Assembly (NCBI RefSeq): GCF_900403705.1
Contig: NZ_OUNR01000001.1
Location: 930,001 to 994,000 of the forward strand
Direction of reading: 5' to 3'
DNA length: 64,000 nt
DNA from: Nitrospira lenta
GTDB taxonomy: Bacteria; Nitrospirota; Nitrospiria; Nitrospirales; Nitrospiraceae
Shown here: positions 1,036 through 47,192 of the stretch, piece by piece
Layout: the number at the start of each line of letters is the position of its first letter
Numbering within the stretch: position 1 is the first letter of the stretch
Position numbers and translations under genes: made by a program
Notes under the pieces: generated by a model
Databases searched by the model: none
Told to the model about the DNA's origin: nothing
The model's input: the letters and a program-made list of their open reading frames with translations, nothing else

Positions 1036-1053
1036 CCCGACTCTCTCCATCAA

Positions 1054-1090
1054 CAGGCGCATGTGCTCTCAAGTACGTGCGCCTGTTCCG
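1054..1090 (+). terminator. Rho-independent-type terminator after the sigma factor gene
   Basis: Inverted repeat with arms CAGGCGCATGT (1054-1064) and ACGTGCGCCTG (1075-1085), one mismatch, loop of about 10 bases, followed by a pyrimidine-rich tract (TTCCGTCTTTCCCC). It sits 19 bases after the sigma stop codon. Confidence 0.6.
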
Positions 1091-1166
1091 TCTTTCCCCG
1101 CCCTCTCAGGTGTGAGAGAATGCGATCCACAGAGGATTCGTATCTCCAGCTTGTTGAAGGACACCG

Positions 1167-2965: not shown

Positions 2966-3007
2966 GCATGAACTCGCCAGTCTCTCCAGATACAGAGTGA
3001 GGTCGCC

Positions 3008-4264: not shown

Positions 4265-4295
4265 GCCAGTCCTTCCTGACAGATGCCGGTTCATC

Positions 4296-4685
4296 ATGAG
4301 GGACTATGCCTTGGCCGCCATCGCGGGAATCTGGCTCGCCGATGGGTGCTCTCTACTGTTGGCACCCCGCTTCATGGTTGAACGTCTGCGGGAGGTGATC
4401 CGCCACCAACCAGCGATCTGGACCTGGCAGTGGGTGTCGGTCCTGGCGGGAGCCGTTCTGCTGATCGCAGCGTGGCCACTCACCTACCAGCCTCTGTGGA
4501 TTATCACCGCCTTAGTCATGCTCCTCAAGGGGGTGCTTCTCGCTCTGGGACCGGAAGCGTGGCGGTCGCGTGTGGTTGAGTGGTGCCTGAACCGCGACGA
4601 TGTGGATTACCGGTTTGTCGGGATCGGCCTATGCACGCTTGCCGCACTCCTTCTCCATGCGCTAGGGTGGATGGGATCGTCATAA
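4296..4685 (+). CDS. Small integral membrane protein, unknown function
   Basis: 129 residues with about four hydrophobic segments: around 5-25, WTWQWVSVLAGAVLLIAAWP, LWIITALVMLLKGVLLALG and the C-terminal IGLCTLAALLLHALGWM. No catalytic motif is visible and I do not recognise the family. It starts 31 bases after gdhA and the next small gene follows after 17 bases, so the three may share a transcript. Confidence 0.7.
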   Translation: MRDYALAAIAGIWLADGCSLLLAPRFMVERLREVIRHQPAIWTWQWVSVLAGAVLLIAAWPLTYQPLWIITALVMLLKGVLLALGPEAWRSRVVEWCLNRDDVDYRFVGIGLCTLAALLLHALGWMGSS

Positions 4686-4702
4686 CTGGAAGGGTGAAGA
4701 CC

Positions 4703-5002
4703 ATGACTGTGAATCGTGACGCCATCACATCGGCCTGGGAAACACATTGCAACGAAGGCTGGCCAACCTTTGCCAGCCCGAATCAGGGACAGCTGATGAC
4801 GCTCGATACCGTCATTAGCGGCTGCGTCGTGTTTTTCTTAGACAGTTCGGAAGGGTTGGACCATCAGCGAGTCGAGATTCTGAAAGACTGCCTCGCAGAT
4901 CTTGAAGCGGTGACGTCGGAGTTGGAAACTGAGCACCAGCACTACTTCATACGCCTCCATCACCTCGGCGAACTGCTGCTAGCCACCACGGTATCCGCCT
5001 AA
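4703..5002 (+). CDS. Small acidic hypothetical protein
   Basis: 99 residues beginning MTVNRDAITSAWE. An in-frame upstream extension to 4580 exists but overlaps the preceding gene and looks non-coding. The ATG at 4703 has an AGGGTGAAG ribosome site just before it. The protein is soluble, with a helical C-terminal half rich in Glu, Leu and His (LADLEAVTSELETEHQHY). I do not recognise the family. Confidence 0.7.
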   Translation: MTVNRDAITSAWETHCNEGWPTFASPNQGQLMTLDTVISGCVVFFLDSSEGLDHQRVEILKDCLADLEAVTSELETEHQHYFIRLHHLGELLLATTVSA

Positions 5003-5183
5003 GACACGTCTTGTGTTATCGAATTCCCTGCTGCGGTCCTTGCCACTCCGAGTTGGACCTTTCTTGCAAGTTCATCGCCCCTTGGATAGAATGTTCGAAG
5101 CTGAATCAACCCTGCCTATCCTTGAAATGATCAGAACAATCGGTACGATCAACTACTATCTTTGATCTGCGAAAGGGGAGACG

Positions 5184-5717
5184 ATGAGGAAGAAATCTGG
5201 ATTGTCCGCGCTAGCCGTAATGCTCGTGGCGATCCTTACCAGTGCAACCTCATCGCTGCACGCAGAGCCCTACGAGCTGAGCAAAAATGATGTGATGGAA
5301 TCGAAGGAGATTTCCAGCGCGACCGTATCGCTGTTCGGAGTGAAGCTAGGCGACACGGAAGCGAAGGCGCTGGATGTCCTGGTCAATGAAAAGATCGCCG
5401 GGATCAAAGCGGAACAGGAAGCCGCCTTTATATTCCTGATCGACCAACGGAAGCCCACCGGCCCAATGGCTGGCGTCCGTGTCCAGGATGGGAAAGTCGA
5501 CCTTATTTTCATCAACAACCGCTTTACCCACAAGGCTCGAGGCATCTTTAGAAATGTATTGAACAGCGAAAGCCCTGAGGACATCCGGAAATTGTTGGGA
5601 AAAGAAGAGTACGGAGATGAAAATGTGATGGGCGCCGTCATGGCCTACGACAAGCAAGGCTTTCAGGTCAATTATCTCGGGAAGGACGTCAACATCGAAT
5701 TTTCTGCCCCCCACTAA
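5184..5717 (+). CDS. Secreted hypothetical protein
   Basis: 177 residues with a clear Sec signal peptide (MRKKSGLSALAVMLVAILTS, predicted cleavage after LHA near residue 27). The mature part is mixed alpha/beta with no cysteines and no motif I recognise. The ribosome site AAAGGGGAG lies just before the ATG. It stands alone, with about 180 bases upstream and about 290 bases downstream where I see no gene. Confidence 0.75.
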   Translation: MRKKSGLSALAVMLVAILTSATSSLHAEPYELSKNDVMESKEISSATVSLFGVKLGDTEAKALDVLVNEKIAGIKAEQEAAFIFLIDQRKPTGPMAGVRVQDGKVDLIFINNRFTHKARGIFRNVLNSESPEDIRKLLGKEEYGDENVMGAVMAYDKQGFQVNYLGKDVNIEFSAPH

Positions 5718-6008
5718 ACCGCTGACCGCTGTTCTTTAGGCAAGACCTTCCTCGCGATCCGTCGCAAACCGACTATTCCCCCCTCGATATCTACCGCCGC
5801 ACGAGCTCATAGTTTTTCTGCTGCATGGAATCCGCATAAAATTTCGATCGTATAAGAGCCCTATCGATCACGCTTGAAATGGAGATACCAGCGCCAGCTG
5901 ACTTGCAGAGGCCGCTGCGCGGGGAACTGGTGTGAAAAATGAGTCTGAGGAAATCGAATATTGCGCGCGGGGATAATTCTACAGGTAAGGAAAGACTGAT
6001 ACAGGGAC

Positions 6009-6899
6009 TTACTGCACGGTAGCCGTAGATTTGAGCCCGAAATCGATGAGGCTCATGGCGGTGTTCCAGCGTCGATTGGAGTTTAAAATCACGACCAATA
6101 AATCGCTGCCGTTCTGTGAAACTTTGGCAATGAGGCATCGTCCCGCTTTTGAGGTGAACCCGGTTTTGACGCCCTCCACGCCGGGGATGCGCCCCAACAG
6201 CCGATTCGTGCTGTGCAACACATACGCACGGTGGCCGCTGATCGGAGTGATAATCTCACGTTCCTCGCGCACGAGCGCGCGGAAGATAGGATTTTGCAGA
6301 GCGACCTCACTGAGCTTTGCCAGATCCTCGGCCGTGGAATAATGCTCAGGACCATCAAAGCCACACCCGTTGCTGAAGTGGGTATCGGTCAACCCCAGCG
6401 CCGCGGCCTTCGCGTTCATCAGCATGACAAACTGCTCTTCATCACCGCCGACATGTTCTACGGCAGCCAGACACGCGTCGTTGGCAGACACGATCAGCAT
6501 CGCTTTAAGCAAGTCTTCGAGTTTGAACACTTCTCCCGGACGAAGCCGAAGATGCGTTTTAGGCGCCCGCGCGGCATTGCGACTGATGGTCGCCTGATCA
6601 TCCAGCTTCCCCTTTTCTAAAATGACCAGCGCGGACATGATTTTCGTGAGGCTTGCGGGCGAGAGTCGCTTGAGAGAGTCGTGCTGGTAGAGCACCCGGC
6701 CAGATCGAAGCTCTTTCATGAAAATGCTATGAGCGGGAGCCACTCGCCACGGAAGGCGGTCCCCCGAAGTACTCGCGGCCCGAACATGGCGCTTCTGTTT
6801 ATGGCTATACTCGGCCTGGGCGTCGAGCGGGATTCCCAAGACCGCGATGCCAAATACCGCTGCCAGGATCGTTGACGTGAGGACAGAGGTCTTAGCCAA
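6009..6899 (-). CDS. dacA: D-alanyl-D-alanine carboxypeptidase (penicillin-binding protein, peptidase S11)
   Basis: Removes the terminal D-Ala from peptidoglycan pentapeptides in the periplasm. An N-terminal signal peptide (about 29 residues, ending AQA) is followed by the three active-site motifs in order: SPASLTKIMSAL (SxxK), SANDA (SxN) and GVKTGFTSKAG (KTG). At 296 residues it ends soon after the catalytic domain and seems to lack the C-terminal beta domain and membrane-anchoring helix of E. coli DacA, closer to DacF-like short forms. Confidence 0.92.
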   Translation of the reverse strand: MAKTSVLTSTILAAVFGIAVLGIPLDAQAEYSHKQKRHVRAASTSGDRLPWRVAPAHSIFMKELRSGRVLYQHDSLKRLSPASLTKIMSALVILEKGKLDDQATISRNAARAPKTHLRLRPGEVFKLEDLLKAMLIVSANDACLAAVEHVGGDEEQFVMLMNAKAAALGLTDTHFSNGCGFDGPEHYSTAEDLAKLSEVALQNPIFRALVREEREIITPISGHRAYVLHSTNRLLGRIPGVEGVKTGFTSKAGRCLIAKVSQNGSDLLVVILNSNRRWNTAMSLIDFGLKSTATVQ

Positions 6900-6941
6900 A
6901 GAGAGGCTCCTTACCCAGGAGGGTGAGCTACAGGGACATAC

Positions 6942-7130
6942 TTACAGCGGGTAGGATTCTCGGACTTTCCCGCCACGAACTCCACTATCGATTACCTTAT
7001 GAAAAAACCGGAGGACATCCGCGAGATCAATCCAAAACCCGCAGTTCAAACAGCGCGCAAAGAGCCGGCGGTTCATGAGCGTATAGTGCCGCTCGACCAT
7101 CATAAACCCTTTGCATTTCAAGCAACGCAT
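6942..7130 (-). CDS. Small zinc-ribbon-like protein
   Basis: 62 residues with two Cys pairs, RCLKCKG at the N-terminus and ARCLNCGFW in the middle, which fits a single zinc ribbon. The rest is basic and aromatic. It may bind nucleic acid or protein; no function is known. It lies upstream of dacA on the same strand with a 42-base gap, so a shared transcript is possible. Confidence 0.6.
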   Translation of the reverse strand: MRCLKCKGFMMVERHYTLMNRRLFARCLNCGFWIDLADVLRFFHKVIDSGVRGGKVRESYPL

Positions 7131-7151
7131 ACCATCGCGTCTACAATGTCA

Positions 7152-7394
7152 TTACCGAAGTCGATTGAGCACAACCGCTAAGCATCCGGCCAGGAGGCCT
7201 CCACCAAGAATCGTGGTGCCGAATGAGACCACTGCGGAGGTGCCTGCAGCCGGCTGGGTCCCTTCCAAGAGATCGCGTATCCCCCCTTGTACCATGAGAA
7301 CCGCAAGGGTCAAGACTGAACCCATTGCAAACCACCAGGTAAATGTTCTCAGGGGCATTACGCTCACACGGACAATAATATGTCGCTGACTCAC
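7152..7394 (-). CDS. Small two-pass membrane protein
   Basis: 80 residues with two hydrophobic segments (WWFAMGSVLTLAVLMV and TTILGGGLLAGCLAVVL) joined by a short polar loop. Probably begins at GTG 7394; an ATG 36 bases further in (MPLRTFTWW) is an alternative. No family recognised. It sits 21 bases before the zinc-ribbon gene. Confidence 0.55.
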   Translation of the reverse strand: MSQRHIIVRVSVMPLRTFTWWFAMGSVLTLAVLMVQGGIRDLLEGTQPAAGTSAVVSFGTTILGGGLLAGCLAVVLNRLR

Positions 7395-7467
7395 ACCTGT
7401 CGGTCACTCTAACGGAGGGTCCAAGACCTGTCAAGAAGTGCCGATATTGCGCGTCGTAATAGAGGAG

Positions 7468-8670
7468 TCACTGCTCAGCTGAGGCAAGTGGCAATGGTTT
7501 AACGGCTTTCAGTCCGCGATGAAGAAAAATGGAAACCGTGCCATTTCCATTGTCAGCCGTCACGAGTCCTGGCTCTTCGACGGCTTTTGTGGTCACCCAG
7601 AATGTCGCCAGCGCAAACGGGCCCGATTTGGCCGGATAGTTTCTCGGTGGATAATGAAAGGTGCCGTCCCCCTTGCCGAAGAGAATCGATAGATCGTTGG
7701 ACTGCAAATTCGCAATGGCGACATCAAGAATCCGATCGCCGTCGAAATCGCGCGTGACGCCTGAGATAGGCCCGGCATCGGCGCCTGAATCTTTTCCCGG
7801 CAGAAATGTGCCATTACCATTACCGAGGTACGTGGTGAAACTATCTCGTTCGCCGTTGATCACGAGCAGATCGCGGTGGCGATCATTGTTGAAATCAGCA
7901 AATGTGGCTGAGAGCGGGCGCTTGCCTGTCCGATAGTCTTTCGGATCGCGAAACGTCCCGTCCCCATTTCCCAGCCAGATTGAAACGGCATTCGACATGG
8001 GACCGCCGTTGGTGACGACCATGTCGATCTTCTCATCGCCATTGAGATCCGACAGCGCCACAGATGTGGGCGTATCGCCATAGGTATATTGCGCCCCGTG
8101 ACGAAACTCTGAGGTTCCGGTTCCAAGAAATATTTGGATTTTATCGTTTCGCAGCGCAACTACCACGTCGGAGTGTCCGTCTCCATTCAGATCCGCGACG
8201 GCCAAGGCGACCGGTGTTCGATGGACCGGGTAGTGCGGCCCCTCTTCAAACTTGCCGTTTCCTCGCCCCATCAAGAACGCGACTTCATCACCGCCTGAGC
8301 AGGCCAGCACGATATCCGCATGGGTATCGTGATTGAAGTCAGCCATAACCAAAGTCCGTGGCTCCTGACACACTTTGACCTGGATTTGGTCGCTAAAACT
8401 TCCGTCCCCATTGCCCAGTAAGATTGAGAGAGTATTGCTGGAAATATTCGTCGTAATGAGATCCGTAAATGTATCGTGATTGAAATCCCCCGTCGTAATG
8501 GTCGTCGGATTTTTTCCGACCTTGTAACTCGTGTAGTAATAGAACAGATCGGGGGGCGTGTAGGGATCCGTCTTGGAACAAGACAGCAGGCTGATTCCCG
8601 CGAAGAGAGATAAAATGGGAATCAACAGCCGTATCCCCCTGCGGTTCATACGGCGGCAGATTGGCTTCAC
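7468..8670 (-). CDS. FG-GAP/VCBS-repeat lipoprotein
   Basis: 400 residues. A lipoprotein signal (hydrophobic IPILSLFAGISLLSC with a lipobox Cys near residue 31) is followed by a run of Asp/Gly-rich repeats such as TGDFNHDTFTDLITTN, ADFNHDTHADIVLA and ADLNGDGHSDVVVA. These are calcium-binding FG-GAP/VCBS blades that fold as a beta-propeller. About seven repeats fill the protein. Such proteins are typically on the cell surface and bind ligands or partners, but the role here is unknown. Confidence 0.88.
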   Translation of the reverse strand: MKPICRRMNRRGIRLLIPILSLFAGISLLSCSKTDPYTPPDLFYYYTSYKVGKNPTTITTGDFNHDTFTDLITTNISSNTLSILLGNGDGSFSDQIQVKVCQEPRTLVMADFNHDTHADIVLACSGGDEVAFLMGRGNGKFEEGPHYPVHRTPVALAVADLNGDGHSDVVVALRNDKIQIFLGTGTSEFRHGAQYTYGDTPTSVALSDLNGDEKIDMVVTNGGPMSNAVSIWLGNGDGTFRDPKDYRTGKRPLSATFADFNNDRHRDLLVINGERDSFTTYLGNGNGTFLPGKDSGADAGPISGVTRDFDGDRILDVAIANLQSNDLSILFGKGDGTFHYPPRNYPAKSGPFALATFWVTTKAVEEPGLVTADNGNGTVSIFLHRGLKAVKPLPLASAEQ

Positions 8671-8875
8671 AGCTCACACCTTTCTCAACTTGGGCCAATG
8701 GGCCTATTCATGGACGTGCGCTCGACCTATGCGTCACCCAATCGAGCGCTCGCGGAGTATACAGACCCCTGGTTTCACCATGCAATCTGCCGGATTCTTC
8801 AGAGAATAGGGATTTGAGCCTTGTCGATTCAACCGGATTTGCGCTAGAATACGAGCTCATTTTGAGGAGGAACCA

Positions 8876-9196
8876 ATGAGCAATCGAGTCAAGGTAGACA
8901 TTACAATGTACGGCATTGCTGAAGTCCTCAGCTGGTGCCACGATCGAAACAAAGGCCGGATCGCTGGGGTCGATACCGAAGGGTTCCAGAAGATGACCGC
9001 GTTAATGGCGGAAAAGCCGCAATCGGGTGATTACTTCACCCTCGACCAATTTTGGAAAAAGAAAGTGTCCTTGGATCTGACGGAAGACGAAGTGGCGACC
9101 ATTGACCGCTGTCTCTACGATATCCCGAATTTCGATAACGAACCGCTTCCTCAAATCCGCCACAAGTTCTGGCCGCAAGCTGTCGGCACTCACTAA
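8876..9196 (+). CDS. Hypothetical soluble protein
   Basis: 106 residues, starting MSNRVKVDITMYGIAEVL, with a strong GAGGAG ribosome site. No membrane segment or signal. Aromatic residues and charged helices are present, but no motif I know. A long perfect hairpin follows the stop, so it is probably a monocistronic gene. Confidence 0.72.
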   Translation: MSNRVKVDITMYGIAEVLSWCHDRNKGRIAGVDTEGFQKMTALMAEKPQSGDYFTLDQFWKKKVSLDLTEDEVATIDRCLYDIPNFDNEPLPQIRHKFWPQAVGTH

Positions 9197-9201
9197 GAAA
9201 G

Positions 9202-9240
9202 TTCTCCCGGCATCGCGCATGCGATGCCGGGAGAATTGTT
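9202..9240. terminator. Bidirectional terminator hairpin
   Basis: Perfect 15-base-pair stem with a GCAT loop: left arm TTCTCCCGGCATCGC (9202-9216), right arm 9221-9235, followed by TTGTT on the plus strand and CTTTCTT on the minus strand. It lies between two convergent genes and probably serves both. Confidence 0.85.
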
Positions 9241-9344
9241 CCTGCATCATCCCCCACTCAAGCAACCCACGTTAAACATCAACATGGTGGGATCGACTCG
9301 CCCTAATACGATGAGATCGGCGGAGATGCGCTCTGCACCGGACG

Positions 9345-10346
9345 CTATAACGCGCCTTCCCCCTTGAGATACTTTCTGAATCGGCCCATGAGATCGGCCC
9401 CAAGCGTGCCCCCCTCTGGCTTTTTCACGTTGGGATCGGAAAAATGCCCGCGGATTTCCTGCAAGCGCTTCTCTGCCTGATCGTTTCCCTGAAGCCGCTT
9501 CGTCTTGGTCAATGCCGTATCAAATGCGTCAAACGTCAACTCGTTGTACCCGAACGACCGAATCCGTTTGACCGCTTTCATCATCGCCTGATTGCGAAAC
9601 GTCGTCAAAGAGTCCGAGTCGATCTCGGACAAGCCCAGTTTCCTGGCGCGGCGTTCTGCCGCCTTTCGGATACCACTCCGGACGAAATCAGGCGAGGTCT
9701 GGAGTCGCTTCCACGCCTCATCCGCCCAGGCGACTTTCTGTTGCGGAGCCTCCCACAATTGTATGACATTCACTTCATCGATGGCCGTAAACCCTTTTTC
9801 ACGGGCCGCCTCTTCCGTGTCGTGCCGAATCATGTCACTGACAAATTCGAGCGCGATCGGTGGCGAGTCTTTGATCTTCTGCTGAAGAAGCGCCAACGCA
9901 CCTTCGCTCCATCTCAACGGAGGCAACTCCCGCTCCCGCGCATCGGCCAGCGATTCGACTCGATCGAGTAAGTCGATATTGACTTCCATATGCCCGCCTT
10001 CGCGAGCCATCTCTTCCGCAATCTGCTTGATCATCCCGCGCATGAACTCGGGCACCGCATCGAGCCGCGCCTTCGCCGCCGCAGTCCACGGCAGCTGCCC
10101 CTTTTCCATCGCCTCGGCCGCGGACGCCATACCGGTCGCGCCACCCATCGAGCCCATCATCTGACCCTTGAATTGGTCCAACTTGATTTCGTCGATCTCT
10201 TCGTAGCCGAGTTCTCGCGCTTTTTTTTCAGCTAACCGCCGGACCATGCCTCGCAGAAAGACCGGAGCACGCTCCATGCGCTTCAGCGCACCATCGGTCC
10301 AGCGAATTTCCGCGCCGGGAGACTCAGCAGAATCTGAGGATGACAT
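9345..10346 (-). CDS. Protein with four PCP_red (protochlorophyllide reductase 57-kDa C-terminal type) domains
   Basis: 333 residues from ATG 10346, chosen because AAGGAG lies six bases upstream. Four copies of a ~45-residue helical module occur around residues 14-60 (IRWTDGALKRMERAPVFLRG), 83-130 (LPWTAAAKARLDAVPEFMRG), 143-200 (LRWSEGALALLQQ, most divergent) and 204-255 (VAWADEAWKRLQTSPDFVRS). The pattern W(T/S)xxAxxRLxxxPxFxRxMxxxxxExxAxExG is that of the BchB C-terminal PCP_red domain. The catalytic part of BchB is absent, so this is not a pigment enzyme. It is the last gene of the long minus-strand run that includes rpsA and an HU/IHF gene. A second PCP_red protein is encoded at 24476-25231. 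Confidence 0.75.
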   Translation of the reverse strand: MSSSDSAESPGAEIRWTDGALKRMERAPVFLRGMVRRLAEKKARELGYEEIDEIKLDQFKGQMMGSMGGATGMASAAEAMEKGQLPWTAAAKARLDAVPEFMRGMIKQIAEEMAREGGHMEVNIDLLDRVESLADARERELPPLRWSEGALALLQQKIKDSPPIALEFVSDMIRHDTEEAAREKGFTAIDEVNVIQLWEAPQQKVAWADEAWKRLQTSPDFVRSGIRKAAERRARKLGLSEIDSDSLTTFRNQAMMKAVKRIRSFGYNELTFDAFDTALTKTKRLQGNDQAEKRLQEIRGHFSDPNVKKPEGGTLGADLMGRFRKYLKGEGAL

Positions 10347-35390: not shown

Positions 35391-35472
35391 TTTCGGCTAG
35401 GGGCATCCGTTTGCCTTGAGGCGGCGGAATGCCTTTGTTGTTTTTGTTTGGATAAGAAAAGCACTCGGACGT

Positions 35473-37404
35473 ATGAAGATCACTCTCAAAGGCGGGAATA
35501 GCCAGGTCCTGGAAAAAGGACAGACCGTGGGAGCGGCCTTGAAGGCCTGCGGCCTATCGGTCGGATCCGATGTCCTCGCCGCCAAAGTCAATGGAATCGT
35601 TGTTGATCTGTCACGGCCGCTGACTGAAGACGCTGTCATAGAGCCAGTCCGGTTCGATTCGGCTGAAGGGCGAGAGGTTTACCGCCATAGCAGCACCCAC
35701 ATCATGGCGCAGGCCGTGAAAGAAGTATTTCCCACGGCACAGGTCACCATCGGTCCGGCGCTTGAAGATAGTTTCTTTTACGACTTCGCCTTTGAGCGGC
35801 CTTTTACGCCGGAAGATCTCGAGAAAATCGAGGCTCGCGTCCGCGAGATCATCAAACGGAACCTGCCGGTCACCAGGAAAGAACTGTCGAAACAAGAAGC
35901 CATTCAGTTTTTCCAATCCCGCGGCGAAGCTTACAAAGTCGAATTGATCCAAGGATTCCCTGAGCATGAGCCGATCACGGCCTATAGCCAGGGCGAGTTT
36001 GTTGATCTCTGTCGCGGACCTCACCTCCCCGCCACCGGTCACGTCGGCGCATTTAAGCTCCTGACGACCGCCGGCGCCTACTGGCGCGGAGATGAGCGCA
36101 ACCCGATGTTGCAACGGATCTACGGAACGTCCTTCCCGACCCAGGCCGAACTCGACGCCTATTTAGCGCGCCTGGAAGAGATCAAACGCCGCGATCATCG
36201 CAAGGTCGGAAAAGAACTCGATCTGATTACCATCCAAGATGAAATCGGTCCAGGCTTAGTTCTCTGGCATCCGAAGGGCGCTCTCGTACGGCTCTTGATC
36301 GAGAATTTCTGGCGCGAACAGCACATCAAAGACGGCTACGATTTGGTCTACTCGCCCCACATTGCGCGGCTCGATTTGTGGAAGACAAGCGGTCACGTGG
36401 ACTACTATCGGGAAAATATGTTTGCCCCGATGAAGCTGGAAGGCAGCGAGTACCAGCTCAAGCCGATGAACTGCCCCTACCACATCATGATTTACAAGTC
36501 GCACTTGCGGAGCTATCGGGATCTCCCTATCCGCTACGGCGAGCTTGGTACGGTGTATCGGTATGAACGCACGGGGGTCCTGCATGGCCTGTTGCGCGTC
36601 CGCGGCTTCACGCAAGATGATGCGCACCTCTTTTGCCGGCCCGATCAGATTCAAGATGAAGTCAGCCGAGTACTGGACTTCACCTTTTTTGTCTTAAAAT
36701 CGTTCGGCTTCGCCGACTTTGAGATTTTCCTGTCAACCAGACCCGAAAAGTCAGTCGGCTCGGATGACAAATGGATTCTCGCGACAGATTCACTGGAGGG
36801 GGCGCTCAAGAGCCGAGGGATCGCCTTCCATTTGGATGAGGGTGGCGGCGCCTTCTACGGACCCAAAATCGACATTAAGATCAAGGACGCCCTTGGCCGA
36901 TCCTGGCAATGCTCGACCATTCAGGTAGACTTCAACAATCCTGAACGGTTTGAGCTCAGCTATATCGGCGAGGATGGAAAATCTCACCAGCCCATCATGA
37001 TCCATCGGGCCTTGATGGGATCCATCGAACGCTTTTTCGGCATTCTCGTCGAGCACTATGGCGGGGCCTTCCCGACCTGGCTGGCACCAGTCCAAGTCGT
37101 GGTCATGGCCATCACTGACAACCAGCGCGAATATGTGAACACCGTCGTCGCTCAGTTGAAAGCCGCAGGGTTTCGGGCTGATGCCGATCTGCGCAACGAA
37201 AAAATCGGCTTTAAGATTCGCGAAGCGGAGAAAGCCAAGGTCCCCTACATGCTCGTGGCGGGGGATCGGGAAGTCCAGAGCGGCACGCTCTCCGTCAGGG
37301 GACGGAGCGGGGCAAATCTCGGCAATATGACAGGGGCTGCAGTGATCGATCTTCTCAGGAACGACGTCACGCGCGCGCAGCCGGAGCTACAACCAACACA
37401 CTAA
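35473..37404 (+). CDS. thrS: Threonyl-tRNA synthetase
   Basis: 643 residues from ATG 35473 (MKITLKGGNSQVLEKGQTV), TGS domain first, then the editing domain with the HSSTHIMAQAVKEVFP and FVDLCRGPHLPATG metal sites, the class II core (MNCPYHIMIYKSHLRSYRDLPIR, VRGFTQDDAHLFC, EGGGAFYGPKID-type text) and the anticodon-binding domain (PVQVVVMAITDNQREYV). The frame is open from 35416, but the TGS domain starts at 35473. First gene of the thrS-infC-rpmI-rplT operon. Confidence 0.97.
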   Translation: MKITLKGGNSQVLEKGQTVGAALKACGLSVGSDVLAAKVNGIVVDLSRPLTEDAVIEPVRFDSAEGREVYRHSSTHIMAQAVKEVFPTAQVTIGPALEDSFFYDFAFERPFTPEDLEKIEARVREIIKRNLPVTRKELSKQEAIQFFQSRGEAYKVELIQGFPEHEPITAYSQGEFVDLCRGPHLPATGHVGAFKLLTTAGAYWRGDERNPMLQRIYGTSFPTQAELDAYLARLEEIKRRDHRKVGKELDLITIQDEIGPGLVLWHPKGALVRLLIENFWREQHIKDGYDLVYSPHIARLDLWKTSGHVDYYRENMFAPMKLEGSEYQLKPMNCPYHIMIYKSHLRSYRDLPIRYGELGTVYRYERTGVLHGLLRVRGFTQDDAHLFCRPDQIQDEVSRVLDFTFFVLKSFGFADFEIFLSTRPEKSVGSDDKWILATDSLEGALKSRGIAFHLDEGGGAFYGPKIDIKIKDALGRSWQCSTIQVDFNNPERFELSYIGEDGKSHQPIMIHRALMGSIERFFGILVEHYGGAFPTWLAPVQVVVMAITDNQREYVNTVVAQLKAAGFRADADLRNEKIGFKIREAEKAKVPYMLVAGDREVQSGTLSVRGRSGANLGNMTGAAVIDLLRNDVTRAQPELQPTH

Positions 37405-37414
37405 GAGGTGGGTT

Positions 37415-37924
37415 ATCGTCCCCAAACTGCGCGTGAACCGCGAAATTCGAGTGCGAGAGGTTCGAGTCATCGGTCCCGAAGGAGAGCAACTGGGGATCCT
37501 CCCCACGCCAGACGCGTTGCGCCAGGCCCAGGAGGGCGGCTACGACCTCGTGGAAGTTGCTCCGACGGCAGCGCCGCCGGTTTGCCGGATCATGGATTAC
37601 GGCAAATACAAATTCGAGCTCAGCAAGAAGGACCATCAGAATCGACGTCACCAAAAGTCGACCCAGGTCAAAGAAATCAAGCTTCGGCCGCGCACCGATA
37701 AGCACGACTTAGGCATCAAGATCCGTCAGATCAAGGAATTTTTGGCTGACGGGAACAAGACCAAGGTCACATTGACGTTTCGTGGCCGTGAAATGGCCAA
37801 TCAAGAGATGGGCCGGTCACTGATGAATATGGTGATCGCCGAAATGACTGAAACCGGAACCATTGAGTATGCCCCACGCATGGAAGGCCGCAGCCTCATC
37901 ATGATCGTGGCACCAAAAAATTAG
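37415..37924 (+). CDS. infC: Translation initiation factor IF-3, apparently starting at AUC
   Basis: 169 residues if translation begins at ATC 37415 (reading IVPKLRVNREIRVREVRVIG). AGAGGTG lies 4 bases upstream, whereas the first conventional codon, GTG 37433, would be 22 bases from it and would cut into the N-terminal domain. N-domain has YDLVEVAPTAAPPVCRIMDYGKYKFE; C-domain EIKLRPRTDKHDLGIKIRQI. infC of E. coli starts at AUU and IF-3 represses its own start, so an AUC here fits the same control. Confidence 0.93.
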   Translation: MVPKLRVNREIRVREVRVIGPEGEQLGILPTPDALRQAQEGGYDLVEVAPTAAPPVCRIMDYGKYKFELSKKDHQNRRHQKSTQVKEIKLRPRTDKHDLGIKIRQIKEFLADGNKTKVTLTFRGREMANQEMGRSLMNMVIAEMTETGTIEYAPRMEGRSLIMIVAPKN

Positions 37925-38207: not shown

Positions 38208-38576
38208 ATGCCCCGCGCAAAAGGTGGACCGAAAACTAGAGCGAGACGGAAGAAGCGGCTGAAACTAGCAAAGGGACAGTACGGCGCAAAAAGCCGGTTG
38301 TTCCGATCAGCGACTGAATCAGTTGATAAGGGACAGCAATACGCGTATGACGGACGAAAGAATCGGAAGCGTGACTTCCGGCGTTTGTGGATTGCACGCA
38401 TCAGCGCAGCCGTCCGGGCACAGGGACTGACCTACGGTCGGTTTATCAATGCCCTCAAGAAAGCAGAAATCCTGCTGGATCGCAAAGTCCTCTCCGACAT
38501 GGCGATCAAGGATGCCGCTGGCTTTGAGAAGTTGGTCGGACTGGCCAAGCAACACCTGACTCCGATCGCGGCGTAA
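38208..38576 (+). CDS. rplT: 50S ribosomal protein L20
   Basis: 122 residues, [21 protein letters not shown]; conserved [17 protein letters not shown]-type block in the N-terminal half. Early 23S rRNA-binding assembly protein and, in many bacteria, repressor of its own operon. Followed by a strong terminator instead of the pheST genes often found here. Confidence 0.97.
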
Positions 38577-38948: not shown

Positions 38949-40676
38949 TTAGCTCAGATCAGCCAATTGCGACAGGTTCACATCGAAGGAAACGGCCGGC
39001 ACGGTGATCTGCCAGCGTTCAAGGACTTCGGGATGGACTTCGCCGATAACGCCGATGGGTTTGCCTGCGACGACGATGCGCCCTGCGCGGCCTTCTAGGA
39101 AGGACGGATGCTGGACCGGCTCCAAGCTGTACTCTTTACCCAAATGGTAGAACAGGATATCGAGGCATGAATGGATTTCCGAGAAGTGGGCAGTTGCATG
39201 AGCGATGACCGCACCCAACACCGTCTCCGTGCGCGAGCCTAGCTCATGCGTGGGATCAGGGATCGCCACATCGCCGGCTTCGAACAGACGGTGCGGATAG
39301 AAGGCTCGATTAGAGGCCGCTTCGACCCGCAGGAGAGAGGGCAACATCCATTGGCGCAGGCAGGAGAAGGTGAGAGTCATGGCATTCTCCACTTCGACCA
39401 TCCGTCCCCACTCTGTCTCAGCCAGACGCATCGTATCGCGATAGCTTTCCGGTGATCCCATAATGTTGGAGATGATTTCCTGGAATCCCAACCCAACCAT
39501 GAGCTCACGCGCCCGATCGGAAGTCTGCTCGATCCGCGAGAGCCCTCCCACGGTGAATTGCGCCGGCATGACCGGGGCGAATTCTCCATAGCCACGGCTG
39601 ATCGCGACATCTTCGACCACATCCATCGCGTGCATCAGATCCTGCCGATAGGGCGGCAACTTCGCCTTAACCGCTCCCTTTCCCGCTGAGACCTCATAGC
39701 CATAGACTTCGAGCGCCTGCTTCACCACCTTCACACCGAGCTTCTGACCCAGTGCCTGCTCGATGGTCTTGAGCTGAATCGTTTTGGAATTTCCGAGATC
39801 CTGTGGCGTGACAACCCGTTTACCCAACGGGGTCGTTTTGGGATACTGCACTTCAATCGGTTCTATCGTGGCGCCGCGATCGGCAAGGTTGGCGGCAAAG
39901 ATATTCAACGTGAGAACGACCATCAACTGATCGGTCCCGGTCACTTCGACAAACAATTCATCATCCCCCACCCGCACTTCCCCCACCTCCCGGCTGTTGA
40001 TAATCGGCGGGAACGACAAGGGTTGATTCTTCGCGTCGCGGAGAATCGGCAAACGGCTTTGCCCGGCTAAGATATGCCCATGCTCCAATCCTTTTGGATG
40101 AACCATAAGGATTTCCGCCAGGGTCATCACGGTCTCCATCCCCAGCGGGGTGAACTTCGCCTGATCCGGCTTGACCAACTCATAGGTGACCGGGAACACA
40201 ATCTTCGATAGTTGGTAGATCCCGATCGAGACGGTCTTTCGCTTGTGCCCGAAGATATCCGCCAGCTTCTCCTGCGTCTGAATGAGCTGGGCCAATCCTT
40301 CTTCGGTAACCCGGTACCCCCTGGCTGTGCACGCAGCGACATAGGGACGCACCTGTTCAAGTCCTGGTGCGACAATGAGAGCGTGCCCCTTCTTCGCCTT
40401 CTTAGAAAAGAAAGGATAGGGCTTGAGCTTCCCCTGTTGCTTGATACGGATTTGCCGGGCGATGCCCTCGCAACACCAGAGATCAGGCCGATTGCTGTCT
40501 TGCAATTCAATGCGCAACTCGCCGGTTTCCTGGTTATGCCCCTTGAGCTCACCCTTCACCAGCATCAGCCAGTCTTCCAATTGCTCGATCGAAACTGGCG
40601 AGACCGAGCCCTTGGCACGGCCGCCGAGGGCCAGCAGGGTTTCGAGATCGTCTTTGAAAATAGAAATCGTCGGCAT
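38949..40676 (-). CDS. pheT: Phenylalanyl-tRNA synthetase beta subunit, archaeal/eukaryotic type
   Basis: 575 residues, against ~800 for normal bacterial PheT. Begins MPTISIFKDDLETLLALGG and has the ELQDSNRPDLWCCEGIARQI block typical of archaeal and cytosolic PheRS. It contains B1, B3/4-type, B5-type and catalytic-like domains and lacks the N-terminal tRNA-binding (EMAP-like) domain and C-terminal FDX-ACB domain of bacterial PheT. Lies 8 bases downstream of pheS on the same strand. Confidence 0.9.
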   Translation of the reverse strand: MPTISIFKDDLETLLALGGRAKGSVSPVSIEQLEDWLMLVKGELKGHNQETGELRIELQDSNRPDLWCCEGIARQIRIKQQGKLKPYPFFSKKAKKGHALIVAPGLEQVRPYVAACTARGYRVTEEGLAQLIQTQEKLADIFGHKRKTVSIGIYQLSKIVFPVTYELVKPDQAKFTPLGMETVMTLAEILMVHPKGLEHGHILAGQSRLPILRDAKNQPLSFPPIINSREVGEVRVGDDELFVEVTGTDQLMVVLTLNIFAANLADRGATIEPIEVQYPKTTPLGKRVVTPQDLGNSKTIQLKTIEQALGQKLGVKVVKQALEVYGYEVSAGKGAVKAKLPPYRQDLMHAMDVVEDVAISRGYGEFAPVMPAQFTVGGLSRIEQTSDRARELMVGLGFQEIISNIMGSPESYRDTMRLAETEWGRMVEVENAMTLTFSCLRQWMLPSLLRVEAASNRAFYPHRLFEAGDVAIPDPTHELGSRTETVLGAVIAHATAHFSEIHSCLDILFYHLGKEYSLEPVQHPSFLEGRAGRIVVAGKPIGVIGEVHPEVLERWQITVPAVSFDVNLSQLADLS

Positions 40677-40684
40677 GGCGTGCG

Positions 40685-42250
40685 CTAGAAGATGCCTCTT
40701 GTGGTCCGGATCAAGTCCAGATTGTCAGTGAATAATTCACGAATATCGTGAATGCCGAGCGCCACCATCGCCATGCGATCCAGCCCCAGCCCCCAGGCAA
40801 TAACCGGCACGGTCACGCCCAACGGCAAGGTGACTTCAGCCCGAAACAACCCCGCTCCGCCCAGCTCCATCCACCCCAAGCGCGAATGCCGCACGTGCAT
40901 CTCGACCGACGGTTCGGTAAAGGGGAAATAGGCCGGCAGGAATTTCACTTCCTTGGCCTGAGCCACTTCACGCGCAAAGAGATTCAGCAAGCCAAGCAGG
41001 GTACGGAAGTTAATGTCCTCGCCCAGCACAATGCCTTCGACCTGAAAAAAGTCGGTGGCATGCGTGGCATCGACTTGATCGTAGCGAAAGCAGCGGGCAA
41101 TCGAAAAATATTTCCCTGGCACAGCCGGCACCGACGCCAGCGTCCTTGCCGAGACCGCGGTCCCCTGACTCCGCAAGACAAGCCGCTTTGCCCGTTCGGC
41201 ATTGAACGCATACTTCCATCCGGTGGAGCCGGTCTTGCCGCCATCCTGATGAGCCTGCATCACGCGCGACAGAAACGGCTCCGCGATCTTCGCGGCATGC
41301 GTCGGATGCTTCACAAAGTACACGTCGTGAACATCGCGGGCCGGATGGAACTGCGGCATGAAGAGCGCGTCCATGTTCCAGAATTCCGTTTCCACCAACG
41401 AGCCGCGCATTTCCTGAAAGCCCATGCTCACGAGCTTCGTCTTCACGGTATCGAGAAATTCACGATAGGGATGCTTCTTCCCGGTCCCGATGCGGGGGGC
41501 GCGTAGACTGATGGTATATTTGCGGAACCGCTTATTCCGCCAGCTGCCGTCTTTCAACAGCTCAGGCGTCAACTGCGAAACTTCTTCCGCCACCCCCTCC
41601 TTGGCGAGGTGCTCCGCCGCTGCTACTCCGGCAGGAGAGAGCCTGAACGATCGAGTGACCCGATCATCCACACGGAATGGTTCTTTGGCGTTTCCACGCT
41701 TGACGGCATAATCTTCGATCACCTGGCGGTGCGCCTCGGGAAAACTCTTCAGCTCACGAGAGGCCTCGTTCACCTGTTGCAGTAACACACGGATCGCCTC
41801 AACCGTAGGGCTGGGGCGGCCAGTCGATTCAATACAGCCGCCCTGGACGATTAATAACACCCCTTCTTTTTTCAACCGTCCAACCGCTTTGCTGACATCG
41901 GACGGATCTAATCCATCCTGCGCTTGGAGATCGGGAATGGTCAGCCGCTTCCCTGTACTGGTCACCTCGCGCGCGGCCGAGAAGACTCGCTCAATCGGTG
42001 ACGCGCCACTGACATATTGTTCGCCCACCTTCGTCAGGGACACGATCGGCGTCACGGTTTCAGCGTGGACCACGAGCAGGGACTTTGCGAGCAACCACTC
42101 GATCGCCATGCTCAGCTGAGACGGCTCTAATTCAGCGGCGGCGGCCAACGATTCAGTTTCCAGAACCGTGTCGGCGGGACGGGACCCGAGCGCGATGATG
42201 ACTCTGATTTCAAGAGGATGCAGGCTGTCGATGAGTGCGGAAGTATTCAC
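40685..42250 (-). CDS. pheS: Phenylalanyl-tRNA synthetase alpha subunit, archaeal/eukaryotic type
   Basis: About 521 residues from GTG 42250 (NTSALIDSLHPLEIRVIIAL), with AGGG seven bases upstream; the frame is open to 42415 but that part is Arg/Pro-rich and not family-like. Several winged-helix domains fill the N-terminal half (residues 1-200), as in archaeal PheS. The class II core is at the C-terminus: DVHDVYFVKHPTHA, SIARCFRYDQVDATHATDFFQ and GWMELGGAGLFRAEV. Bacterial PheS is only ~340 residues and starts with a coiled coil. Confidence 0.9.
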   Translation of the reverse strand: MNTSALIDSLHPLEIRVIIALGSRPADTVLETESLAAAAELEPSQLSMAIEWLLAKSLLVVHAETVTPIVSLTKVGEQYVSGASPIERVFSAAREVTSTGKRLTIPDLQAQDGLDPSDVSKAVGRLKKEGVLLIVQGGCIESTGRPSPTVEAIRVLLQQVNEASRELKSFPEAHRQVIEDYAVKRGNAKEPFRVDDRVTRSFRLSPAGVAAAEHLAKEGVAEEVSQLTPELLKDGSWRNKRFRKYTISLRAPRIGTGKKHPYREFLDTVKTKLVSMGFQEMRGSLVETEFWNMDALFMPQFHPARDVHDVYFVKHPTHAAKIAEPFLSRVMQAHQDGGKTGSTGWKYAFNAERAKRLVLRSQGTAVSARTLASVPAVPGKYFSIARCFRYDQVDATHATDFFQVEGIVLGEDINFRTLLGLLNLFAREVAQAKEVKFLPAYFPFTEPSVEMHVRHSRLGWMELGGAGLFRAEVTLPLGVTVPVIAWGLGLDRMAMVALGIHDIRELFTDNLDLIRTTRGIF

Positions 42251-42260
42251 CCTGAATACC

Positions 42261-42965
42261 CTATCGAAGGGAAGCGGCGCGAGAGGTGGTGGTTGAGGCG
42301 GCCGGCTGCCCCGCGGTCCGCAGCGCCGCAATGGTGCCGGCATAGTCCCGGCTCGCAAAAATCGCCGAGCCTGCGACCAGAACAGTGGCTCCCGCCGCAA
42401 TGATCTGCGCGGCATTGTCGGGTTTCACCCCGCCGTCGACTTCGAGTAACGCCCGGCTTTGGAGACGATCCAACATCTCCCGAATCGCGACGATCTTTTT
42501 CAAGACAGACGGAATAAACTTCTGCCCGCCGAATCCTGGATTCACCGACATGACTAAGACCAGATCGACGTCGGCTAAAATCTCCTGCAATACACTGACC
42601 GGCGTCGCAGGATTGAGCGTCACGCCCGCCTTGACGCCGCGCTCCTTGATCGATTGAATCGTCCGATGGAGATGGGGACAGGCTTCGACATGCACCGTGA
42701 TGTAGTTAGCCCCGGCAGCCACAAATTCAGGAATAAACGTATCGGCATTGGTGATCATCAGGTGCACATCGAGCGGCAGCTTAGTGACCTTCTTGATCGA
42801 CTCGATGACCGGAGGGCCAATGGTGAGGTTCGGCACGAAATGCCCGTCCATCACATCGATGTGAAGCAGATCCGCTCCGGCTTGTTCCACAGCCGCAATT
42901 TCATCAGCCAGACGCACAAAATCGGCGGCGAGGATCGAGGGGGAAATTAATACCGAACTGCTCAT
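42261..42965 (-). CDS. rpe: Ribulose-phosphate 3-epimerase
   Basis: Interconverts ribulose 5-phosphate and xylulose 5-phosphate in the pentose phosphate and Calvin-type routes. 234 residues from ATG 42965 (MSSSVLISPSILAADFVRLA); the frame is open further upstream but overlaps rsmB. LLHIDVMDGHFVPNLTIGP, MSVNPGFGGQKFIP and LEVDGGVKPDNA hold the metal-binding His and Asp residues. Start overlaps the rsmB stop. Confidence 0.95.
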   Translation of the reverse strand: MSSSVLISPSILAADFVRLADEIAAVEQAGADLLHIDVMDGHFVPNLTIGPPVIESIKKVTKLPLDVHLMITNADTFIPEFVAAGANYITVHVEACPHLHRTIQSIKERGVKAGVTLNPATPVSVLQEILADVDLVLVMSVNPGFGGQKFIPSVLKKIVAIREMLDRLQSRALLEVDGGVKPDNAAQIIAAGATVLVAGSAIFASRDYAGTIAALRTAGQPAASTTTSRAASLR

Positions 42966-44404
42966 AGAGAACCTTGTATCTTTCTCAGCCGGACGGCATA
43001 GAACCCGTCCATACCGAGAGCATTTCCCATCGTGGACAGCGCACCCTGCTCCGTAACAAAGGGAAAAGCGGAAGCGGGAAGCCACGGCATGATGGACTCG
43101 CGAACACAATCTGAATGGTCCTGACAAAACCGGGCGATGACGGCTTCAGTCTCTTCCGGTTCCGTCGAGCAGGTACTATAGACCAGCACCCCGCCGGGCC
43201 GCAAGACAGAGGAAGCCCGTTCGAGGATCTCTCTCTGTAAAGTGTGATGACGGACAAACATCTCGGTATCTTTTTGACCCTTCGCATCAGGGTGGCGCCG
43301 CAATACCCCCATGCCGCTACACGGCGCATCAACCAGGATACGATCAAATACACCCGGCGACGGAATTTGTAGATCTGTTGCCTGGCGAGAGACCACCATC
43401 CCCAACTCTCTCGCATCTGCCACAAGTGGGGCAATAATCGTCGCACCAAGCCGCTGGCAGTTCTCCTTCAAGACCTGTAGTCGCGCGGCATGACGATCCA
43501 TGGCCACGATCTGACCACGATTGGACATCAGCTCGGCCAGGTGAGTGGTCTTTCCTCCAGGGGCCGCACAGACATCGAGAATGTGTTCGTCAGGCTGTGG
43601 ATCCAGTATGAGTGGAATAAGTTGCGCCGCTTCGTCTTCGACATAGAACAATCCGTCTTGAAATCCCGGGATCGTCGTGACGGCCCGCCCTTCTTCGAGA
43701 ATCACCCCAACGGGGCTGACGGTTGTCTGTCGGGCGGCAATCCCCGCGCCGACGAGCTGTTCAAGAAATGCGTCACGGCCCACTCGCTGACGATTGACGC
43801 GCAGCGTCAAGGCCGGAACGGTGCTCACTGTTTGACAAGCGGCCTCCGCCCGCTCAACTCCCATCTGTTCGACCCAGCGGGCACAGAGCCACTGCGGCAC
43901 CGCATAACGGATCGAGAGCGCTCCGGCCGGATCCGGTTGGAGCTCTGGGAACGGACGTTCCGGCAGACGCGTCACACTCCGTAACACAGCATTGACCAAC
44001 CCGCTCCAATCTCGCCCGAGCTGGGCCTTGTTGGCCTTTGCCAGATTCACGGATTCGTTTACCGCCGCAGAAGCCGGGACACGATCCATATAAGCCAACT
44101 GATACATCCCCATCCGCAGTAGCATCTGCACCATCAGCGGGAGCCGGGGCAAGGGTTTCTTCAGTGCCGGCTCCAAACGCCAATCAAGCGTCTCCTGACG
44201 CCGCAACACTCCATAGACTAATTCCATGGCAAAGGCCCGATCACGGCTATCCATTGCCTGGCGATCCCACAAACGAGTGCACACTTCATCGAGTGGATCG
44301 CCTGATTTGTGCTGAGTCAACAGGACGGCCAGCGCGCGGGCCCTGGCAGAAGGGGGGAGAGATGGTTTTGAGGTGGGAGGAGAAGACATGATGCGGCCGA
44401 TCAC
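42962..44404 (-). CDS. rsmB: 16S rRNA (cytosine-967-C5)-methyltransferase RsmB
   Basis: 480 residues. NusB-like RNA-binding domain (residues 20-150, LDWRLEPALKKPLPRLPLMV) then the SAM methyltransferase: VCAAPGGKTTHLAELM, VDAPCSGMGVLRRHPD and the catalytic Cys in YSTCSTEPEE. GTG start overlaps the fmt stop; ATG 15 bases further in is possible. Adjacent to fmt, as in many bacteria. Confidence 0.94.
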   Translation of the reverse strand: MIGRIMSSPPTSKPSLPPSARARALAVLLTQHKSGDPLDEVCTRLWDRQAMDSRDRAFAMELVYGVLRRQETLDWRLEPALKKPLPRLPLMVQMLLRMGMYQLAYMDRVPASAAVNESVNLAKANKAQLGRDWSGLVNAVLRSVTRLPERPFPELQPDPAGALSIRYAVPQWLCARWVEQMGVERAEAACQTVSTVPALTLRVNRQRVGRDAFLEQLVGAGIAARQTTVSPVGVILEEGRAVTTIPGFQDGLFYVEDEAAQLIPLILDPQPDEHILDVCAAPGGKTTHLAELMSNRGQIVAMDRHAARLQVLKENCQRLGATIIAPLVADARELGMVVSRQATDLQIPSPGVFDRILVDAPCSGMGVLRRHPDAKGQKDTEMFVRHHTLQREILERASSVLRPGGVLVYSTCSTEPEETEAVIARFCQDHSDCVRESIMPWLPASAFPFVTEQGALSTMGNALGMDGFYAVRLRKIQGSL

Positions 44405-45360
44405 GCCGGCAATTCTGACAACGGCGGCTCTGCATCGAAATGCTGACCTACACTCACGCGGTGCCCCGCCAGATACTGCGCCACAGTAAGCCGCTTACTA
44501 TTGGACGGTTGAATCTCTTCCAGCGCCAACACCCCGTCTCCCGTCGCAACCAGGATAGACTGCTTCGTCACCTCGATGATGGTGCCAGGCACGACATCCG
44601 GCTTGCCCGGGCTCTGAGTTGCGCTCCACACCATCCATCGCTCACGGCCGAGATAGCTATAGGCACCGGGCCAGGGAGAAAGACCACGGACGCGATTGGC
44701 AATGCTACTCGCACTCGCTGTCCAGTCAATCACTCCATCTTCTTTCTTCAAGGGCGGGGCCAGAGTGGCTAACGCATGATTCTGAACATGTGGGGTGATC
44801 GTTCCCGCCTTGAGTCGCGCGATGGTCTCGACCAACAACCTTCCTCCAAGTGCGGCCAGACGTGGCGCCAGCGATCCGGCGGTGTCTTGAGGAAAGATCG
44901 TCAGCGATTCCTGCAGGAGCATGGCGCCCGTATCCATCCCCTCATCCATCATCATGGTCGTGATGCCAGTCTCAGCCTCTCCGTTGATCACTGCCCATTG
45001 GACTGGTGCCGCTCCACGATACTTCGGCAGCAGCGAACCATGCACATTCACGCAGCCCATCGGTGGAAGCGTGAGAATCGGGCTATGGAGGATTCGTCCA
45101 TAGGCCGTTACCGCGATCAAATCTGGCTTCCACGCTGCGAGGGCCGCGAGAAACTCAGGCACTCTGATTTTGGTGGGCTGGAGGAAGGGGATGCCCTCCC
45201 GCTGGGCCACAAGCTTGATCGGAGGTGGCGTCAAAACGTTGCCGCGACCTTTAGGCCGATCCGGTTGAGTGACGATGCCCACAACGTGGTCGTCAGATTT
45301 CAGCAGCGCCTCCAGTGAGGGGACGGCAAATTCCGGCGTGCCCATGAACACAATACGCAT
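44401..45360 (-). CDS. fmt: Methionyl-tRNA formyltransferase
   Basis: Formylates initiator Met-tRNA. 319 residues: MRIVFMGTPEFAVPSLEALL, the formyl-THF site with VNVHGSLLPKYRGAAPVQWA and the C-terminal tRNA-binding barrel (ALEEIQPSNSKRLTVAQYLA). The initiator tRNA gene it acts on lies 86 bases away, in the opposite orientation. Confidence 0.96.
   Translation of the reverse strand: MRIVFMGTPEFAVPSLEALLKSDDHVVGIVTQPDRPKGRGNVLTPPPIKLVAQREGIPFLQPTKIRVPEFLAALAAWKPDLIAVTAYGRILHSPILTLPPMGCVNVHGSLLPKYRGAAPVQWAVINGEAETGITTMMMDEGMDTGAMLLQESLTIFPQDTAGSLAPRLAALGGRLLVETIARLKAGTITPHVQNHALATLAPPLKKEDGVIDWTASASSIANRVRGLSPWPGAYSYLGRERWMVWSATQSPGKPDVVPGTIIEVTKQSILVATGDGVLALEEIQPSNSKRLTVAQYLAGHRVSVGQHFDAEPPLSELPA

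Positions 45361-45446: not shown

Positions 45447-47188
<1,742 letters not shown>

Positions 47189-47192
<4 letters not shown>

Follow-up and report, generated by a model that had tools for sequence, protein, structure and literature searches.

Archaeal phenylalanyl-tRNA synthetase (PheRS, encoded by pheS for the alpha subunit and pheT for the beta subunit) has a known bacterial home in the spirochaetes. The available text of Andam and Gogarten (2011, PMC3191353) reports the archaeal form from Spirochaeta, Treponema and Borrelia, its near relatives being found in the Thermococcales and its subunits measuring 513–528 (alpha) and 514–573 (beta) amino acids, whilst Leptospira and Brachyspira keep the bacterial form. 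For the archaeal and eukaryotic enzymes themselves, the accessible part of Klipcan et al. (2010, PMC3275996) describes an alpha N-terminus comprising three DNA-binding-like domains, two of them winged helices, and gives N217 as the editing-site asparagine of P. horikoshii PheRS. Here we describe a pheS–pheT pair lying in a 64,000-nucleotide stretch of the genome of the bacterium Nitrospira lenta (contig NZ_OUNR01000001.1, positions 930,001 to 994,000; hereafter the window), in which a sequence-only reading had identified an archaeal-type enzyme and cited the spirochaetes, correctly, as a precedent for such a replacement.

As in the spirochaetes described in the text consulted (PMC3191353), both subunits are archaeal in type, the host is a bacterium and the trait is common to a branch of one phylum. 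Unlike the spirochaete genes, the Nitrospirota pair is found in another phylum, stands beside rplT in the reverse direction in six families and lies behind rpe in the Nitrospiraceae. With the archaeal and eukaryotic cytosolic enzymes of P. horikoshii and human, as presented in the part of PMC3275996 available, it shares a long alpha N-terminus, a short beta subunit without the B8 domain and the editing asparagine. Its presumed reaction, the kind of tRNA-Phe it would use and the neighbourhood of its locus are those of the bacterial PheRS of E. coli and of 14 other Nitrospirota families, which differ in their subunits (alpha of 334–363 amino acids, beta of about 680–810 and built to the longer bacterial plan) and in having pheST co-directional with rplT wherever the genes share a contig.

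Comparison with family models confirms the window pair as archaeal/eukaryotic-type PheRS. The PheT protein scores 465 bits against the archaeal model TIGR00471 (pheT_arch, cut-off 283) and, at 112 bits, falls far below the cut-off of 403 for the bacterial model TIGR00472 (pheT_bact). PheS scores 561 bits against the archaeal model NF003210 (cut-off 350) and also passes the general PheS model TIGR00468 (346 bits, cut-off 237). PheT is 575 residues long and begins MPTISIFKDDLETLL, just as the sequence-only reading had it, and the length of about 521 residues given there for PheS is reproduced when translation begins at a GTG codon at position 42250; we set the start at this codon, rather than at the beginning of the longest open reading frame (ORF; 40685–42415, 576 amino acids), because relatives in other families align from there. 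Pfam recognises only B5 and CLM domains in PheT, with seven residues remaining between the CLM domain and the end of the protein, so the bacterial C-terminal anticodon-binding (B8/FDX-ACB) domain is missing. A Pfam search of PheS returned no DBD match.

These two genes are the only PheRS found in this Nitrospira genome (3.76 Mb, 99.98% complete). A whole-genome search gave a single match to PF01409, the PheS core, a single archaeal pheT and no bacterial pheT at E ≤ 1e-60, in line with the earlier statement that the normal bacterial pheST is missing here. Nor was any remnant of a bacterial pheST left in the window when it was searched with 23 bacterial PheS and PheT queries (E ≤ 0.01): 22 of these gave one match each, all inside the archaeal-type genes, to which the bacterial proteins show weak homology (21–30% identity), and a fragmentary PheT from family f16 gave none.

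The trait extends beyond one bacterium to the level of the phylum. In a sample of 118 Nitrospirota genomes, to which 22 family codes (f1 to f22) were assigned, 76 encode an archaeal pheT over the model cut-off and 37 have a bacterial one at E ≤ 1e-60, which in 35 genomes also exceeds its model's cut-off. No genome has both types and no family is mixed; the five genomes with neither type (G016, G035, G066, G084 and G086) include four that are less than 90% complete. The archaeal type occupies eight families (f1, f2, f3, f4, f5, f8, f11 and f12), the bacterial type the other 14 (f6, f7, f9, f10 and f13 to f22). As an aside on the latter, the PheT reading frames of f7, f10, f13–f15 and f17–f22 are only about 680–730 amino acids long, match TIGR00472 from about position 152–160 onwards and look to be without the part holding the B2 (EMAP-like) domain, those of f6 and f9 being about 800 amino acids. 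The closest named relatives of the window PheT are Nitrospira bins (93–97% identity), the complete Nitrospira moscoviensis chromosome NZ_CP011801 having 84%, and all 49 loci in a scan for relatives carry the titles of Nitrospira or other Nitrospirota, the single-sequence query used there reaching close relatives only. Three scans of viral contigs, using the window PheT and both Nitrospirota alignments, gave no relative. In a plasmid collection 19 records, all from bacteria, match just the C-terminal half of PheT; each covers less than 80% of the query, and none is archaeal or spirochaete.

Trees of both subunits place the Nitrospirota proteins apart from the bacterial type. The archaeal-type rows (28 for PheT and 27 for PheS) were chosen across families from the 76 genomes, the f16 PheT fragment and human Protein Data Bank rows being left out. 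Row 8s8b was counted as eukaryotic, an assumption made from its similarity. In the PheS core tree (40 rows) the 11 bacterial-type rows split off with support of 100/100, the 27 Nitrospirota rows group at 93/92 and the two eukaryotic rows fall on the archaeal-type side with them; in the PheT tree (42 rows) the 11 bacterial-type rows again split off at 100/100 and the 28 Nitrospirota rows unite at 99/99. The Nitrospirota group recurs without the bacterial rows, in a PheT tree rooted on the eukaryotic rows (99/98), and in a joined PheS and PheT tree (97/98), the latter giving no settled family order. Within the PheT tree f1, f2, f3, f4 and f12 form a group (97/95) that agrees with the ribosomal tree described below, with f5, f8 and f11 at an open fork. 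The phylogeny that the sequence-only reading had called for, built here in part, separates both subunits from bacterial-type PheRS, a placement within which had been named as the finding that would overturn it, and leaves the donor unnamed: the archaeal comparison consists of one P. horikoshii PheT fragment, with no archaeal PheS and no spirochaete rows, and the gene trees therefore show the type of PheRS and not its source. The PheT and PheS proteins of f12 (for example in G019, G028 and G037) evolve fast: their stems are long, at about 0.9 to 1.4 changes per column, and PheT reaches about 313–393 bits against the archaeal PheT model, the other families scoring mostly 445–531 bits.

Gene order adds a second line of evidence. 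In E. coli (locus L202) the order is thrS-infC-rpmI-rplT-pheM-pheS-pheT, all on one strand. Among bacterial-type Nitrospirota rplT and pheT are co-directional in all 26 genomes with both genes on one contig, the pheT match starting 1.1–2.8 kb after that of rplT (36 of the 37 genomes were entered, G101 being left out with its pheT split over two contigs; in ten the genes are on different contigs). In 46 of the 49 archaeal-type genomes with both genes on one contig pheT is convergent to rplT, at distances of 94 to 9672 nucleotides, and the window pair, as the sequence-only reading had noticed, conforms to this arrangement. A further 25 genomes, in which the two genes lie on separate contigs, and two that gave no rplT match carry no orientation. 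The convergent state is seen in six families (f1, f2, f3, f5, f11 and f12), and rpe lies upstream of pheS in f1, f2, f4 and f11 loci. This conserved position suggests that an ancient replacement took place close to, or at, the site of the original pheST. Three genomes are not convergent: G105 (f1) and, from f8, G048 and G033. In G105, which belongs to the genus of the window (locus L122, G105:C47), the thrS-infC-rplT block has the other orientation relative to pheST. Five f8 loci (L087, L083, L090, L098 and L099) have after rplT a co-directional gene whose product resembles an N-acetylmuramoyl-alanine amidase with a TPR-like N-terminus, and pheST was not seen in these loci, each of 3.3 kb; the amidase-like gene was considered as a link to loci with an rplT–pheT gap and rejected after a search of 40 loci and of the window gave nothing at E ≤ 1e-5.

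The tRNA substrate appears not to have followed the enzyme. Of 16 genomes searched, tRNA-Phe could be read in 13 (eight archaeal-type and five bacterial-type), the search pattern missing G055, G065 and G021, and all 13 share the anticodon GAA, the discriminator A and the same D-loop, GGTAGAGC. Anticodon, discriminator and D-loop positions are what we take to be the main identity elements for phenylalanine. The tRNA-Phe of two archaeal-type f8 genomes (G005 and G015) is identical over 76 nucleotides to that of a bacterial-type f6 genome (G013), which may be mere kinship, f6 adjoining f8 in the ribosomal tree. Our reading of these sequences is that the enzyme was probably exchanged without change of tRNA-Phe, which kept its bacterial form.

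Predicted structures are in keeping with the family assignment. The PheT model has a mean predicted local distance difference test score (pLDDT) of 84.6, and in its N-terminal part there is a match to the P. horikoshii fragment 2cxi, with a template modelling score (TM-score) of 0.94 by target length, at 1.9 Å and 36% identity. Its first four fold matches are archaeal or eukaryotic PheRS, the first bacterial entry appearing at rank 5, and N227 aligns with the P. horikoshii editing-site asparagine and is invariant in 18 of 18 PheT rows. The PheS model is poorer (mean pLDDT 71.9, predicted TM-score 0.41), with parts of the catalytic core below 50, and this poor core accounts for the low TM-score (0.40) of its best whole-length match, the human cytosolic PheRS alpha subunit 3l4g_C; ranks 1–9 are all eukaryotic-type PheRS entries. 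The predicted PheS N-terminus (about residues 10–220) is helix-rich with beta hairpins and has block pLDDT values of 76–93. This confident region and the full-length match to 3l4g_C point towards the multiple winged-helix domains proposed earlier ahead of the core.

The phenylalanine pocket has a mixed character. In the section of PMC3275996 available, Phe258 and Phe260 of the Thermus alpha subunit represent the bacterial pair and Asn410, Tyr412 and Phe438 are the human residues. The aligned positions in the window PheS are F442, F444 and F469, a combination of the F-x-F typical of bacteria with the phenylalanine of the eukaryotic site. F-x-F is present in 26 of the 27 Nitrospirota archaeal-type PheS rows (G117 has F-x-Y) and F469 in all 27. 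The two eukaryotic rows, unlike these, have N-x-Y with F, and in the 11 bacterial rows F-x-F goes with V or I. Such a mixture may be ordinary for archaeal PheS.

Taken as a whole, the evidence makes it probable, in our judgement, that the ancestor of seven Nitrospirota families gained an archaeal pheST, that the bacterial pheST was lost and that the acquired pair is now the sole PheRS in N. lenta. A tree built from SecY and 20 ribosomal proteins encoded in the S10/spc/alpha region (21 proteins, not all present in every genome; 3292 columns; 40 Nitrospirota genomes and five other bacteria) has f1, f2, f3, f4, f5, f11 and f12 as a single clade of 22 rows (98/99). The pheS–pheT pair would have been acquired by the ancestor of this branch from the archaeal side and have settled downstream of rplT, facing it, with loss of the bacterial pheST that normally follows rplT; in the Nitrospiraceae it now ends a tight fmt-rsmB-rpe-pheS-pheT string. 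Its products presumably assemble as (alpha-beta)2, the archaeal/eukaryotic form of the enzyme, in which the catalytic core of the alpha subunit would join phenylalanine to tRNA-Phe as in other archaeal PheRS, the tRNA would be held with the help of the alpha N-terminal domains, which would stand in for the absent beta C-terminal domain, and the B3/B4 site of the beta subunit would remove tyrosine. On this scheme the tRNA-Phe would have needed no change. Being common to a large branch of the phylum, the swap looks ancient.

Several observations weigh against this reading or limit its parts. In the ribosomal tree f8 stands beside bacterial-type f6 (85/70), with f9 and f16 (94/95), inside a larger and mostly bacterial-type group (91/89), and a tree constrained to unite all 26 archaeal-type rows is rejected (approximately unbiased test, p 0.018). 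Of the 13 f8 genomes, the two that have both genes on one contig do not have pheT convergent (ten have the genes on different contigs and one has no rplT match), and rpe was not found upstream of pheS in the f8 and f12 loci examined. All four f4 genomes have rplT and pheT on different contigs. Replacement in place is suggested by position, and the archaeal pair faces the opposite way with no remnant left behind. As to the source, the PheT tree that includes bacterial rows does not settle how P. horikoshii, the two eukaryotic rows and the Nitrospirota branch relative to one another; an apparent closeness to P. horikoshii in the first PheT tree came from its eukaryotic rooting and was gone once the 11 bacterial rows were added. 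The words 'from archaea' therefore rest mainly on the family models.

A single gain thus explains seven families well, and f8 needs either an event of its own or a different species tree. That there was more than one acquisition in the phylum, f8 having gained its pheST separately from related archaea or from another member of the Nitrospirota, is compatible with the ancestral gain and has, we judge, slightly better than an even chance. The ribosomal placement, the rejected single clade, the two non-convergent f8 genomes and the different gene after rplT in five f8 loci all favour it; against it, f8 lies inside one Nitrospirota group in both the PheT and the joined trees, with no settled place at the base, the f6/f8 join is only 85/70 in a tree that drew program warnings about long outgroup branches and 15 rows of odd letter composition, and a transfer inside the phylum could still give the two branches a single donor. 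The most specific version of events, in which an interdomain exchange took place at the original locus in the seven-family ancestor and the pair later passed to f8, leaving two forms of PheRS that read the same tRNA-Phe, the archaeal one with a mixed pocket, is plausible but the odds are somewhat against it.

Less likely still is an immediate donor among other bacteria with archaeal-type PheRS, for example a spirochaete, or the reverse, in which the Nitrospirota gave the genes to the spirochaetes. It draws on the archaeal form of Spirochaeta, Treponema and Borrelia and their near relatives in the Thermococcales (PMC3191353, available text), P. horikoshii being the only archaeon in our comparison. 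A divergent but ordinary bacterial PheRS, misread as archaeal, could claim the weak homology of the bacterial proteins and the general PheS model that the window protein passes, and is refuted by the opposite outcomes with the two PheT models, the 100/100 splits and the lack of an anticodon-binding domain. Many of the relatives are metagenome bins, but archaeal genes in a contaminated bin or misassembly are highly improbable, since the pair stands between bacterial rpe and rplT, has relatives in the complete N. moscoviensis chromosome and keeps the convergent order in the single-contig genomes G055, G081, G110 and G019.

The genes around the pair are listed in the table below. The four-nucleotide overlaps among fmt, rsmB and rpe, the 10 nucleotides from the rpe stop to the pheS start and the 8 nucleotides from the end of pheS to pheT make it likely, judging from the coordinates, that fmt-rsmB-rpe-pheS-pheT is a single transcript; the same string is present in relatives. 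Between rplT and pheT a single terminator-like site, where 0.6 would be expected by chance, and the lack of any promoter-like site give no useful evidence. Just beyond fmt, on the reverse strand at 45480–47192, lies a gene for a 570-amino acid large serine recombinase with Resolvase, Recombinase and zinc ribbon domains, the 3′ end of which overlaps a tRNA-Met gene (45447–45523), an arrangement like that of an element inserted at a tRNA gene. This recombinase was considered as a carrier of pheST and rejected, as the pair is common to eight families and fmt lies between.

Table. PheRS genes and their neighbours in the Nitrospira lenta window (positions are those of the window).
Feature	Coordinates	Strand	Evidence and remarks
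pheT, archaeal/eukaryotic-type PheRS beta subunit, 575 amino acids	38949..40676	-	TIGR00471; Pfam; fold match to 2cxi
pheS, archaeal/eukaryotic-type PheRS alpha subunit, 521 amino acids, GTG start	40685..42250	-	NF003210; start from relatives; fold match to 3l4g_C
rpe	42261..42965	-	PF00834, 290 bits; start codon chosen by us; directly upstream of pheS
rsmB	42962..44404	-	PF01189 and PF01029; 4-nucleotide overlap with rpe
fmt, first gene of likely operon	44401..45360	-	PF00551 and PF02911; 4-nucleotide overlap with rsmB
rplT, convergent neighbour of pheT	38208..38576	+	PF00453, TIGR01032
infC	37433..37924	+	PF00707 and PF05198
thrS, longest ORF, true start probably further in	35416..37404	+	PF00587, PF03129, PF07973, PF02824

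Judged by titles and the beginnings of abstracts, no report of archaeal PheRS in the Nitrospirota was found among the matches listed in the open-licence literature, and the word Nitrospira does not occur in the main text, as available, of PMC3191353, PMC4427996 or PMC5370408. Models at the National Center for Biotechnology Information already name such proteins, so the occurrence could be found even if it has gone unremarked. The Nitrospirota case is a further instance of a known, rare replacement, in which the evidence from the locus is unusually clear and one family does not fit the simple account.

Gene trees are as a rule the only basis for inferring that an essential aminoacyl-tRNA synthetase was exchanged between domains. 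In the Nitrospirota both forms of PheRS survive in families that are neighbours, the synteny is clear and the kind of tRNA is the same, so that this exchange is open to study as a natural experiment. The type of PheRS also provides a clean character for branching inside the phylum, and its distribution calls for care with phylogenies and marker sets in which pheS or pheT is used. Nitrifiers being abundant, theirs may be among the commoner archaeal-type PheRS enzymes in bacteria.

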